Below are positions 31,765 to 35,937 of a stretch of 51,051 nucleotides of DNA, piece after piece (position 1 is the first letter of the stretch; each line of letters starts with the position of its first letter). A program made the position numbers and the translations under genes. This DNA is from a virus. The stretch spans positions 1 through 51,051 of the IMG/VR virus record IMGVR_UViG_3300043420_001612. The stretch is one strand, 5' to 3'. The notes beneath the pieces are model-generated. The model was not told the DNA's origin and ran no database searches. It saw only the letters and a program-made list of their open reading frames with translations.

Positions 31765-33140
31765 TGGCACCATTAAATCCCTATTTTTTAAATGGTTCAA
31801 CAAGTGAACAAAGACTTGTTCAGGATTTAATTAATGAACAATTGAGGATGTATGGGCAAGACATAGTTTATATGCCCAGAAAATTTATCAATGAAAAAAA
31901 TATTATTAAAGAAGTAGTAGTTTCTAGATTTGATGATGGTTTTAGATTGGAAGCATATGTAATGAACTTTGACGGATTTGGTGGGCAAGGTGATATTTTA
32001 AGTAAGTTTGGAGTAAAAACAACTGATGAATTAAATTTAATTATATCAAAAGAAAGATATGAAGATTTTATTTCCCCATTTTTAGTTTCGGACCAACAAA
32101 TAAAAGTTTCAACAAGACCACAAGAGGGTGACCTTATATATTTCCCCCTGGATAATTCACTATTTGAAATCAAATATGTAGAGGGCAAACAACCATTTTA
32201 TCAATTAAATAATCTTTATGTTTATCAATTAAAATGTGAAATATTTGAATATGAAGATGAAAATATTTCTACATCTATTAGTGAAGTTGATGAATCTGTT
32301 AAAGATTTTGGATATATTCAAACAATTACAATGGTGTCATCTGGATCTACATCAGCAACAGCAAATATTTCATATTTACCTTCAGAAAAATCGGTTCAAT
32401 ATATTGATCTCATAAATGATGGAACTGGATATTTGACAACTCCCACAATTAAAATTGAAAAAGCACCTGCTGGGGGAATAGATGCAACAGCAGTTGCAAT
32501 TATGACATATAGACCACCAAGAAAGGGTAGTTCTATTGATAAAATTGTACTTATAAATCCTGGTGCGGGATACACAACAGTACCAAAAGTTGAAATAGTA
32601 AGCGATACTGGAACCGGTGGAATTGCAACAGCAGTTATTGCTACTGGTTCTCTTGGTCAAATATCATTGCTAACTAATGGTTCTGGATACTCTTCTGCTC
32701 CAAACGTTTCAATCTCTTCTGCCCCTGCGGGTGGTGTAAATGCAACTGCACAAGCATTTATAAACTCATCAGGTATAGTGACTGCAATTAGATTTACCAA
32801 CTCTGGTGCTGGGTATATATCTATCCCAAGCATCACTTTGAGTTCTCCTGTCGGAACATCAACCGGTAATTTTATCTTCAATGAAGCAGTTCGAGGTGTT
32901 TCTACTGGAACAACAGCATATGTTAAAAATTGGGATGCAGATACAAAAGTCCTTAAAGTTTCTATTGCAAATGGAAACTTTGCCCTTGGTGAACTTATAG
33001 TTGGTTCAAAGGCAACTCATAAAGTATTTTCAATAGAAACTGACGATTTGTATGACCCTTATGCAGAAAATATTGAAATAGAAGACGAATCTGACTCAAT
33101 ATTAGATTTTACTCAAAGAAATCCTTTTGGTGATTACTAG
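31764..33140 (+). CDS. 14: Neck protein gp14 with inserted repeat modules
   Basis: Partner of gp13 in the neck. The N-terminal about 180 residues (NPYFLNGSTSEQRLVQDLIN, EQLRMYGQDIVYMPRK, GFGGQGDILSKFGVKTTDEL, RPQEGDLIYFPLDNSLFEI) are clearly gp14. T4 gp14 is 256 aa; this one is 458. The extra length (about residues 190-430) consists of four GxGY repeats (DGTGYLTTPTIKI, GAGYTTVPKVEI, GSGYSSAPNVSI, GAGYISIPSITL) and a GTTAYVKNWDADTKVLKVS module like those in the giant tail proteins. The C-terminus returns to a gp14-like acidic end (DSILDFTQRNPFGDY), so the repeats look inserted ahead of the native tail. Confidence 0.9.
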   Translation: MAPLNPYFLNGSTSEQRLVQDLINEQLRMYGQDIVYMPRKFINEKNIIKEVVVSRFDDGFRLEAYVMNFDGFGGQGDILSKFGVKTTDELNLIISKERYEDFISPFLVSDQQIKVSTRPQEGDLIYFPLDNSLFEIKYVEGKQPFYQLNNLYVYQLKCEIFEYEDENISTSISEVDESVKDFGYIQTITMVSSGSTSATANISYLPSEKSVQYIDLINDGTGYLTTPTIKIEKAPAGGIDATAVAIMTYRPPRKGSSIDKIVLINPGAGYTTVPKVEIVSDTGTGGIATAVIATGSLGQISLLTNGSGYSSAPNVSISSAPAGGVNATAQAFINSSGIVTAIRFTNSGAGYISIPSITLSSPVGTSTGNFIFNEAVRGVSTGTTAYVKNWDADTKVLKVSIANGNFALGELIVGSKATHKVFSIETDDLYDPYAENIEIEDESDSILDFTQRNPFGDY

Positions 33141-33175: not shown

Positions 33176-34234
33176 ATGTTAGGAACATATAGTTATCACG
33201 AAATTATAAGAAAAACAGTAATATCTTTTGGTACGCTTTTTAATAATATTTTAATTAAGCACGAAGAACAAGATGGAACTGATTATAGTTTAATAAAAGT
33301 TCCAATTGCATATGGTCCTGTACAAAAATTTTTAGCAAGACTAGAACAAAAACCAGACTTAAGAAAAAGAGTTGCTATGACTCTTCCTCGTATGTCTTTT
33401 GAATTGTCAAGTATTAATTATGATGCAAGTAGAAAGGTTTCTACGGTACAAACATTTAAAGCATTAAATTCTGATAATCAGAATAAAGCAGTCAAAGTTT
33501 ATATGCCAGTCCCATATAATTTGGGAATAAAGTTAAGTATAATGGCCAAATATAATGATGATATGTTACAAATTTTGGAGCAAATTTTGCCATTTTTTCA
33601 ACCTTCATTCACGTTGACTATTGATTTAGTGTCATCCATTGGAGGAAAAAAAGATATTCCAATGATACTTGAAAATATTCAAATGGAAGATAATTATGAA
33701 AGTGATTTTACAACCAGAAGAGTTTTAATTTATACTTTAAATTTTGTTGCAAAAACTTACATATTTGGTCCAATTGCTGACAATACAGAAGGACTAATCA
33801 AAAAAGTTCAAGTTGATTATTATACAGATACGAATACAAAAAATTCATCAAGACAATTACGATATACGGCAACTCCAAGAGCAATTAAGGATTATAATAA
33901 TGATAATACAACCGTATTATCGGAGGAAATTAATGAATATGTTACTGAAATTGAAGTTTCCAATGCATCTTTATTGAGTACCAACACTTACATTATGATT
34001 GAAAATGAGGAAATGTTTATTAAGAGTATTGATGGAAATACATTAAAGGTATTGAGGGGACAAGATAACACTATTGCAACTCCACATTCAATAAATTCAT
34101 CAGTTGATGTCATAAATGAAACTGATGATAATTTAATTGAACCAGATGATGATTTTGGATTTAGTGAATCTCGTTTTGATTTTGGTGATGGGAAAATTTA
34201 CAGTACCACAAAGGGAGTGGATGTATCACTATGA
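33176..34234 (+). CDS. 15: Tail sheath stabiliser / tail completion protein gp15
   Basis: Caps the tail and connects it to the neck. The product (352 aa from this ATG; T4: 272 aa) has GTYSYHEIIRKTVISFGTLF, then a typical gp15 core: RVAMTLPRMSFELSSINYDA, KVYMPVPYNLGIKLSIMAKY, NDDMLQILEQILPFFQPSF and a YTLNFVAKTYIFGPI strand. An in-frame TTG at 33170 is not preferred. The C-terminal about 100 residues are an extension with a EEMFIKSIDGNTLKVLRGQD module, also seen in the giant baseplate proteins, and an acidic end. The stop overlaps gp16 by 4 nt. Confidence 0.9.
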   Translation: MLGTYSYHEIIRKTVISFGTLFNNILIKHEEQDGTDYSLIKVPIAYGPVQKFLARLEQKPDLRKRVAMTLPRMSFELSSINYDASRKVSTVQTFKALNSDNQNKAVKVYMPVPYNLGIKLSIMAKYNDDMLQILEQILPFFQPSFTLTIDLVSSIGGKKDIPMILENIQMEDNYESDFTTRRVLIYTLNFVAKTYIFGPIADNTEGLIKKVQVDYYTDTNTKNSSRQLRYTATPRAIKDYNNDNTTVLSEEINEYVTEIEVSNASLLSTNTYIMIENEEMFIKSIDGNTLKVLRGQDNTIATPHSINSSVDVINETDDNLIEPDDDFGFSESRFDFGDGKIYSTTKGVDVSL

Positions 34235-34662
34235 AAAACAACTTTGATAAAATAAATGAATCTTTAGATATAGAACCAATATCAGTTTCAAACGATATTG
34301 TTATTGGTGAATTAAAAAGTACTCAAAAAATAAATAAAAAATCCCCGATAGATTGTTACGACGAAGATTATCAATACACTAGGGGAAATCTATATTCATT
34401 AATCCAAAAAGCACAGCAAGCAGTAGATGAAGTTTTGGAAGTTGCACAGCAAAGTGATAGTCCAAGAGCATATGAAGTTGTTTTTCAGGGAATAAAACAT
34501 GCAGCAGATGTGACTGATAAGTTAATTGATTTGCAACAAAAAATGAAAAAATTAAATGAAACTGATGTAAAATCACCAAGCACAGTTAATAATACGTTAT
34601 TCGTTGGTTCTACAGCAGAATTGCAGAAATTACTTAAGCAAGAATTTACAGACAATAAATAA
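34231..34662 (+). CDS. 16: Terminase small subunit gp16
   Basis: Regulates and recruits the packaging motor to concatemeric DNA. The 143-aa product (T4 gp16: 164 aa) has a short acidic N-terminus, then the diagnostic central helices: YTRGNLYSLIQKAQQAVDEV, EVAQQSDSPRAYEVVFQGIK and a coiled-coil HAADVTDKLIDLQQKMKKLN, followed by TLFVGSTAELQKLLKQ. It is coupled to gp15 and lies ahead of gp17, with two other genes between, as in many cyanophages. Confidence 0.92.
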   Translation: MKNNFDKINESLDIEPISVSNDIVIGELKSTQKINKKSPIDCYDEDYQYTRGNLYSLIQKAQQAVDEVLEVAQQSDSPRAYEVVFQGIKHAADVTDKLIDLQQKMKKLNETDVKSPSTVNNTLFVGSTAELQKLLKQEFTDNK

Positions 34663-34673
34663 TTCAAAAACAA

Positions 34674-35762
34674 ATGAAAACTTTTTCACAATTCATAGAA
34701 GAGTCTATTGACCCAAAGGGACCTATAAAGAAGTATATGCCCCCAGAAGAAATTGCGAAAAAACATAAAATTTCATTAAAAACTTTAAATTCTCAATTGG
34801 AGATGGGAATTAAGGTCGAAAGTGAACATACTGGAAGTAAAAAAATGGCAAGAATGATTGCTTTACAGCATTTAGAAGAATTTCCCGATTACTACTCCAG
34901 ATTAAAAAAAGCAGAAAAAATTAAAGAAGCAACTGATGGAATTAAAGCAAAGGATTATAAGGGTAGGTTAGATAGATGGTTCGATGATGGTGGTTGGGTT
35001 CAAGCAGGTGGAAAGTATGATGGAAAACCATGTGCAAGACAACCAGGACAAACAACAAAACCATATTGTAGAGACCCCGATGATCGTGCTGCGATGAGTA
35101 AAGAAGAAAGAAATAAAAGAGCTACTAAAAAACGTAGAGAAGACCCAAATCCAAACGAATCGGGTAAAGCAAAAATGGTAACTCAAGAATCTGTGGGAGA
35201 AAAGGACGCTTGTTATAAAAAAGTCAAAAGTAGATATAAAAAATGGCCAAGTGCCTATGCTTCTGGAGCACTTGTAAAATGTCGTAAAGTTGGTGCAAAA
35301 AATTGGGGAAATAAAACTGAAGAGACAAATTACAATTCTCTTCCTGATTGGGAAGGTCGTATTTACGAAGACGAACAACGTTATTGCCCAAAATGCCAAA
35401 AAATGGAACGTGCAACAGAGTGTAAATATGGTCCAAAGTTTTGGTCATTATATTCTTCTGCTGTTGAACCATCAGAACAGACCAAAAACAGCATTTCTAA
35501 AATTGATGTATTAAAAAATATTGAAGAAAAATATACTAGAATACAATCAAGGGGATCTACTTATACTATAATGTTTAACTGGAGAGGTAAGTATTTAACG
35601 GCACAAATGTTTTTTCCTCAATTCACAAGACCATCAAAACCTCAAGTAACTTTTGAACTGAGGAAAATATATCCAGATGCAATTGTTTTAACTTTCAATC
35701 CTTCAATCAAAGATCCAACAAAACCTTTATTATTCACAGGAGAGATAGATGGACCCAGATAA
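34674..35762 (+). CDS. Basic modular protein with capsid-targeting-like N-terminus, 362 aa
   Basis: The first residues, MKTFSQFIEES, closely match the T4 capsid-targeting sequence (MKTYQEFIAEA in internal protein III), with IEE fitting the (I/L)xE site cut by the gp21 protease. This suggests an internal head protein. After it come a segment with TGSKKMARMIALQHLEEFPD YYSRL (DUF5661-like), a Cys-containing Arg/Lys-rich block with RQPGQTTKPYCRDPDDRA and KKRREDPNPNESGKAKMV, a YKKVKSRYKKWPSAYASGAL module (DUF5872-like), a CPKCQ...C cluster and a beta-rich C-terminal domain. High positive charge fits DNA contact in the capsid. Domain names are from memory. It lies between gp16 and gp17 and overlaps the next gene by 14 nt. 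Confidence 0.75.
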   Translation: MKTFSQFIEESIDPKGPIKKYMPPEEIAKKHKISLKTLNSQLEMGIKVESEHTGSKKMARMIALQHLEEFPDYYSRLKKAEKIKEATDGIKAKDYKGRLDRWFDDGGWVQAGGKYDGKPCARQPGQTTKPYCRDPDDRAAMSKEERNKRATKKRREDPNPNESGKAKMVTQESVGEKDACYKKVKSRYKKWPSAYASGALVKCRKVGAKNWGNKTEETNYNSLPDWEGRIYEDEQRYCPKCQKMERATECKYGPKFWSLYSSAVEPSEQTKNSISKIDVLKNIEEKYTRIQSRGSTYTIMFNWRGKYLTAQMFFPQFTRPSKPQVTFELRKIYPDAIVLTFNPSIKDPTKPLLFTGEIDGPR

Positions 35763-35937
35763 AATAATCTTAGATTGCTTAACTAAAAATTTCGAATACG
35801 AAAGAATCTCAAGAGAAGTTGATTCGTGTGAGAATATAGAACAAGTAAAAAATATAGCAAAGTCTTTTATTAAGTTATATTTACAACAACAAGAAGTTAT
35901 ATCAAAAATTGGATTAATTGATGGAAAAACATTATAA
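35749..35937 (+). CDS. Small helical protein between gp16 and gp17, 62 aa
   Basis: Begins MDPDKIILDCLTKNFEYERI, then SREVDSCENIEQVKNIAKSF and a helix with LYLQQQEVISKIGLI. It overlaps the gene before it by 14 nt and gp17 by 17 nt, so it is embedded in a coupled packaging cassette. A short protein of this shape is recalled at this position in cyanophages. Function is unknown; an accessory role in packaging is inferred only from position. Confidence 0.7.
   Translation: MDPDKIILDCLTKNFEYERISREVDSCENIEQVKNIAKSFIKLYLQQQEVISKIGLIDGKTL

Follow-up and report, generated by a model that had tools for sequence, protein, structure and literature searches.

A candidate capsid-targeted internal head protein encoded between the terminase genes of a freshwater T4-like virus

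Gene neighborhood of the candidate

The DNA analyzed (hereafter the window, 51,051 nucleotides) is a 51-kb fragment of a freshwater T4-like virus of the cyanophage type. Its genes run in the order gp14, gp15, gp16, the candidate, a 62-aa ORF, gp17, an endonuclease VII-like ORF, gp18, gp19 and gp20, followed by a 104-aa ORF, a 529-aa ORF, gp21, gp22 and gp23, with the names gp18, gp19, gp20 and gp23 taken from gene order and sequence. The following features were considered.

34231-34662: gp16, small terminase
34654..34661, + strand: AATAAATA, T4-type late-promoter-like site 5′ of the candidate start
34674..35762, + strand: candidate internal head protein, 362 aa (open frame and homologs)
34674..34703, + strand: capsid-targeting-like leader MKTFSQFIEE, predicted gp21 cut after Glu10 (ortholog conservation; T4 determinants)
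34743..34916, + strand: DUF5661 module, residues 24-81 (Pfam PF18905, E 1.2e-15)
34929..35177, + strand: WF..GGW module, residues 86-168, after IKE85^A (conserved block, phrog_727, boundary motif)
35202..35318, + strand: DACY module, residues 177-215, after VGE176^K (conserved block, phrog_38880/phrog_3477, boundary motif)
35379..35438, + strand: CPKC stretch, residues 236-255, after IYE232^D (shared with S-SCSM1_29; weak boundary enrichment)
35529..35708, + strand: C-terminal strand-strand-helix-strand domain, residues 286-345, after IEE285^K (HHalign to the body of the ORF at 43839; model)
35918-38548: gp17, large terminase
43839..44153, + strand: second leader protein, MKSFKQFISES..., 104 aa, phrog_1742 (leader and C-terminal domain in common with the candidate)
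44156..45745, + strand: 529-aa ORF (MAQWNK...) accompanying the small leader protein (same neighbor in DSL-LC02 and S-B43)
46006..46713, + strand: gp21 head maturation protease, presumed processing enzyme (phrog_207, E 1.4e-80)
46784..47992, + strand: gp22 scaffold, net charge -67, presumed docking partner of the leader (phrog_237, E 9e-105)

Docking of the leader on gp22 is presumed by analogy with T4. The location of the candidate between gp16 and gp17, beside the terminase genes as the sequence-only reading had placed it, says little, since hypervariable insertion is known for the stretch from gp15 to gp18 (PMC2984593). Isolate relatives of the candidate come mainly from Synechococcus phages, and close environmental relatives are present in IMG/VR.

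The gp17 gene is interrupted by an intein of 328 residues (36173-37156), which splits the Walker A loop (RQTGK/STTVV); gp17 copies without an interruption are present in other loci. The first residue of an intein is usually Cys, Ser or Ala; here it is Met (MLSLDTKIPTP), as also in L057.

Modules of the candidate protein

The candidate ORF has an in-frame stop 5 codons 5′ of its start, MKTFSQFIEES. The encoded protein has a net charge of +23, a pI of 9.5 and 7 Cys, in agreement with the strongly basic, Cys-containing body described from the sequence alone; among eleven measured neighboring structural or assembly proteins, only gp21 was likewise basic. Two small modules had been described in the body, and about five were found instead (DUF5661, WF..GGW, DACY, CPKC and the C-terminal domain), of which DUF5661 (PF18905) scored 58 bits against the Pfam gathering cut-off of 27. 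No similarity was found between the body and T4 proteins. PADLOC and NCBIfam gave no match and thus no defense function or named function, while Pfam gave DUF5661 only.

Leaderless relatives are known in hundreds of phages; they combine variable numbers of the candidate's modules and of further ones, and many of them stop immediately 5′ of the small leader protein. The T4-GC0119/phrog_727 proteins (S-SCSM1_29, S-B43, S-CREM2 gp160) are virion proteins that share the candidate's modules and, like it, lie between gp16 and gp17 in several isolates, but they differ from it in module order and number and in having no N-terminal leader.

Conservation of the ten-residue leader

The T4 internal proteins IPI, IPII and IPIII carry a capsid-targeting sequence (CTS), are cut by gp21 and are injected. 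For IPIII the first ten residues suffice for packaging, and mutation has shown that CTS residues 4 and 7 set targeting and residues 8 and 10 processing, gp21 cutting after L/I-x-E (PMC9026906). In 17 orthologs of the candidate, found by whole-protein homology, M1, K2, F4, F7 and E10 are invariant, and the remaining five leader positions are 60-86% identical to those of the candidate; 15 of the 17 have I or L at position 8 and the other two V or F, and position 11 is mostly S or A, the candidate reading IEE^S. Residues 11-35 have been rebuilt between ortholog subclades, while the five invariant leader positions stay unchanged. The conserved positions coincide with the T4 determinants (4, 7, 8 and 10), so the N-terminus fits a T4 CTS; the initial observations that it closely resembles this sequence and that IEE obeys the gp21 rule were thereby upheld. 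A chance origin of the N-terminus was ruled out by the ortholog conservation together with the reversed-pattern control described below.

A second leader protein in the window

A scan of the window for the leader gave one other real ORF, that at 43839 (MKSFKQFISES), which sits between gp20 and gp21 and keeps the leader in its homologs; a match at 32881 was rejected as spurious because it opens only a 39-codon frame. HHalign of the full alignments of the two families aligned the leaders only (16 columns, 63% identity, E 5e-4), at a probability of only 30% because the aligned stretch is very short. At the domain level, the body of the 43839 ORF matched the C-terminal domain of the candidate with a probability of 96% (E 2.2e-9), and the models of both proteins, which are poor (mean pLDDT 58 and 63), show strand-strand-helix-strand in the same order. 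The leader and domain-level matches indicate that the two proteins are related in leader and C-terminal domain. Unlike the candidate, the phrog_1742 protein is short (104 aa), acidic and without the basic modules.

Foldseek searches with both models returned no match with E below 0.05. T7 Gp2 was among the best VIA matches of both weak models (Z 4.4 and 4.7; rmsd 2.4-2.5 across about 49 residues), on a par with phi29 p6, ribosomal proteins and other folds, and the DUF5661 region gave a weak match to RNA polymerase omega (Z 5.8) on a weak model. These fold matches (Gp2, phi29 p6, omega, ribosomal) were set aside, the matches and the models being weak; a sequence profile found no Gp2.

Distribution of the leader in other genomes

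The leader was searched as DNA with the pattern M-K-x-[FY]-x-x-F-[hydrophobic]-x-E. This gave 49 matches distributed over 18 of 18 related phage records, against 0 for the reversed control; a search for the leader among cyanophage proteins had been proposed by the sequence-only reading. Apart from the window match at 32881, all matches open ORFs of at least 52 aa. The bodies behind the leader, whose comparison had also been proposed, are many and unrelated: the small protein, candidate orthologs, nucleotidyltransferases (CTP_transf_like, Pfam E 1.6e-5), SAM lyases (PF23780; S-CREM2 gp6, E 2.3e-19; L190, E 3.3e-6, slightly under the cut-off), HiPIP-like proteins and very small peptides. Letter counts at the positions fixed by the pattern are circular and were excluded from the evidence; position 11, left free in that search, is A or S in 48 of 58. 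With a stricter pattern, IMG/VR gave at least 129 leader starts, at least 126 of them with bodies of at least 50 aa, forming several dozen clusters among the matches listed and including glucosaminidase, a DPBB lytic transglycolase-like protein, an AAA kinase-like protein and DUF6267. T-even internal proteins likewise combine a single leader with highly diverse bodies (PMC3012670). A search of open-access literature found no description of a CTS in cyanophages.

In T4 the pattern recovered ipII, ipIII and 61.1; ipI, with its divergent leader (MKTFKEFTST...ITEAT), escaped it, and the pattern therefore undercounts. RB49 and phiKZ gave no match and KVP40 gave one. T4 gene 61.1 (L230:667-831, - strand; 54 aa) starts MKTFKEFIKED, an internal-protein-like leader of which no mention was found in the literature consulted.

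Further leader-bearing ORFs were noted in passing. SAM lyase family proteins with a capsid-targeting-like leader occur at L211 (S-CREM2 gp6), L190, L198, L200 and L204. Leader proteins of 66-67 aa at L172:1501-1701 and L195, with a HiPIP-like domain (Pfam E 6.2e-5), are possible packaged iron-sulfur proteins. One phage carries three leader ORFs within 3 kb (L205:134-3130); two of these carry modules (CW.GYKKKG, SIDCNNPKGFSQ) that are elsewhere internal parts of polymodular relatives, and one has a leader, MKTYQEFISEAK, that is almost that of T4 IPIII. Leader bodies at L258:1211-1858 (- strand), L255, L344 and L254 resemble ADP-ribosyltransferase, kinase and phosphatase folds by eye only, and Pfam gave no match for them.

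The T4 late promoter is TATAAATA, which the site upstream of the leader ORFs (AATAAATA in the window, NATAAATA in general) resembles in sequence. NATAAATA was present within 80 nt upstream of 70 of 277 leader ORFs, compared with 7.7 expected, and lay most often 22-31 nt before the ATG.

Protease-type sites between modules

[ILVMF]xE was enriched at 5 of the 6 module boundaries with enough data, one further boundary having two usable linkers only. At these five boundaries it was present in 29/30, 46/61, 12/13, 38/42 and 11/11 distinct linkers, compared with 9.3, 19.5, 5.3, 16.0 and 4.1 expected from shuffled linkers; the CPKC boundary was weak (21/46 versus 15.7 shuffled), and control windows were near expectation (305/1234 versus 284). 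Because the boundaries were placed by our own anchors and the sequences are related, these enrichments are strong tendencies and not exact probabilities. The candidate has an unremarkable total of [ILVMF]xE sites, and only their positions across the family are informative. Five of its sites, after residues 10, 85, 176, 232 and 285, coincide with module boundaries and with linkers that the model predicts at low confidence; the sixth, after residue 69, lies at the end of a predicted helix inside DUF5661. Full internal copies of the leader also stand directly before modules (for example KTFGDFMSE^ASAAWQ), the motif K[TS]FxxF[hydrophobic]xE being found internally ten times in the family and 0 times in 200 shuffles. 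Enrichment of protease-type sites at module boundaries implies that the candidate may be cut into pieces; from sequence, the chances that gp21 does so between the modules appear even.

Leader-bearing proteins and body relatives in virions

Published virion proteomes of relatives in other phages were compared; these cover whole CsCl-purified virions, with head, tail and contaminants together. The S-CREM2 proteome contains both pattern-positive ORFs of that phage, the leader-bearing gp6 (SAM hydrolase; 19 peptides) and gp154 (cytidylyltransferase; 3 peptides) (PMC10665884). Leader-bearing S-SM1 T4-GC190 (PMC3037559) and S-SCSM1_91 (PMC9602691) are also virion proteins. Pattern-positive S-SCSM1_30 is absent from the reported virion proteins, as is SSZBM1_191 from those in the part of its source that was covered. 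Four of six pattern-positive ORFs from four cyanophages were thus in the virion set, as far as the sources were covered, against base rates of 14-24% (P 0.012, calculated with approximate gene totals for S-SCSM1 and S-SM1). Two further detected virion proteins have near-leaders, S-CREM2 gp136 (MQTFSMFFSED) and the S-SZBM1 cytidylyltransferase (S-SZBM1_140), the frame of which contains MRFRQFIIEA; these were noticed afterwards and excluded from the P value.

Body relatives of the candidate were detected in S-CREM2 virions as gp160 (7 peptides) and gp137 (4 peptides; C-terminal domain). S-SCSM1_29 is labeled a virion protein by its record, the S-B43 relative is annotated "structural protein, T4-GC0119", and SSZBM1_194 is absent from the covered part of the S-SZBM1 virion table. 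All body relatives detected in virions are without an N-terminal leader, so the leader is dispensable for virion entry of some family members. SSZBM1_194 (L213:17254-19377) is itself modular, and in it an internal copy of the leader, ITYREFIAEG, immediately precedes C-terminal sequence resembling SAM lyase by eye.

Interpretation and alternatives

We read the candidate, with good confidence, as an internal head protein targeted by a CTS in a T4-like virus of the cyanophage type, and it would rather likely be injected with the DNA. We infer its targeting, cleavage, head location and injection; as to its action in the host, protection while bound to DNA or host takeover is a guess. With T4 IPI-IPIII it shares a ten-residue leader with K2, aromatic residues at 4 and 7, L or I at 8 and E10 followed by S or A, a basic body, the use of one leader on many unrelated bodies and a late-type promoter site. 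It is unlike them in that its body is unrelated and multi-module with protease-type sites at the module boundaries, in that it has leaderless family members and in its place between the terminase genes.

T4 genes 67 and 68 lie between genes 20 and 21, where the leader-bearing small protein and many leaderless relatives of the candidate are also found. The main rival reading, which we regard as unlikely, is that of a prohead core protein, a counterpart of gp67/gp68 that the leader would anchor and gp21 shred, most fragments leaving before packaging, so that it would serve head assembly and not the host. Several predicted L/I-x-E-type cut sites, as in T4 core proteins (PMC5694885), and the reported lack of gp67 and gp68 in cyanomyoviruses (PMC2984593) favor this reading; the candidate itself, however, lies between gp16 and gp17 and not at the 20-21 position, has a CTS-type leader on a basic protein whereas the gp22 core is acidic, and has relatives that persist in mature virions. 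Its module content is highly variable, and the leader is also found on enzymes with no plausible core role. The confidence given to the two readings overlaps, because a core protein can be CTS-targeted too. That the terminase region simply encodes an ordinary virion or packaging accessory protein, with an N-terminus that has no targeting function, is improbable: leaderless relatives recorded as virion or structural proteins do lie there, but position is uninformative in a hypervariable region (PMC2984593), conservation is focused on precisely those positions that determine a CTS, and the leader is common to a paralog elsewhere and to unrelated genes.

The remaining alternatives concern what an injected protein would do. 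An anti-defense role, in which the protein would act as T4 IPI does and block a nuclease or some other defense of the host, is doubtful, somewhat more so than a core role. The leader is of the same type as in IPI to IPIII, module content is variable, and S-CREM2 virions contain a leader-bearing SAM lyase, a different cargo that belongs to a known class of anti-restriction proteins; against this, the body gave no hint beyond DUF5661 in PADLOC, NCBIfam or Pfam, and leaderless relatives in hundreds of phages better fit a general role. Least probable, and very much so, is a C-terminal domain with a T7 Gp2/RNA polymerase epsilon-like fold through which the injected protein would bind host RNA polymerase. 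For both models Gp2 ranks with the top matches, but it ties with unrelated folds on weak models, with no Foldseek E below 0.05 and no Gp2 in the profile search.

As a CTS-targeted internal head protein, the candidate would be made late, and its leader, through the aromatic residues 4 and 7, would recruit it to the prohead core formed by acidic gp22. Gp21 would then take off the leader after Glu10 and probably also cleave part of the linkers between modules (after Glu85, Glu176, Glu232 and Glu285). The small, mostly basic modules would then stay among the packaged DNA and exit the head together with it at infection.

Implications for T4-like phages of aquatic hosts

The same tag on dozens of unrelated proteins, some of them virion enzymes, suggests a shared delivery route into the host with the DNA. 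Cyanophage virion enzymes (cytidylyltransferase/NMNAT-like, SAM hydrolase) have been reported without an account of their entry, for which the T4-type leader offers a direct, testable route; the leader also allows injected candidates to be listed for thousands of uncultured phages with nothing but their sequences. Internal leader copies and inter-module sites point to polyprotein-like chains as further substrates of the prohead protease. More tentatively, and at odds somewhat below even, T4-like phages of aquatic bacteria may rely on a single leader and a single protease to fill the head with a large set of exchangeable proteins, the candidate being a chain of modules delivered to act on the host or its defenses. 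If true, the loaded set would include SAM lyase, cytidylyltransferase, peptidoglycan enzymes and protease-cut, polyprotein-like chains of basic modules.
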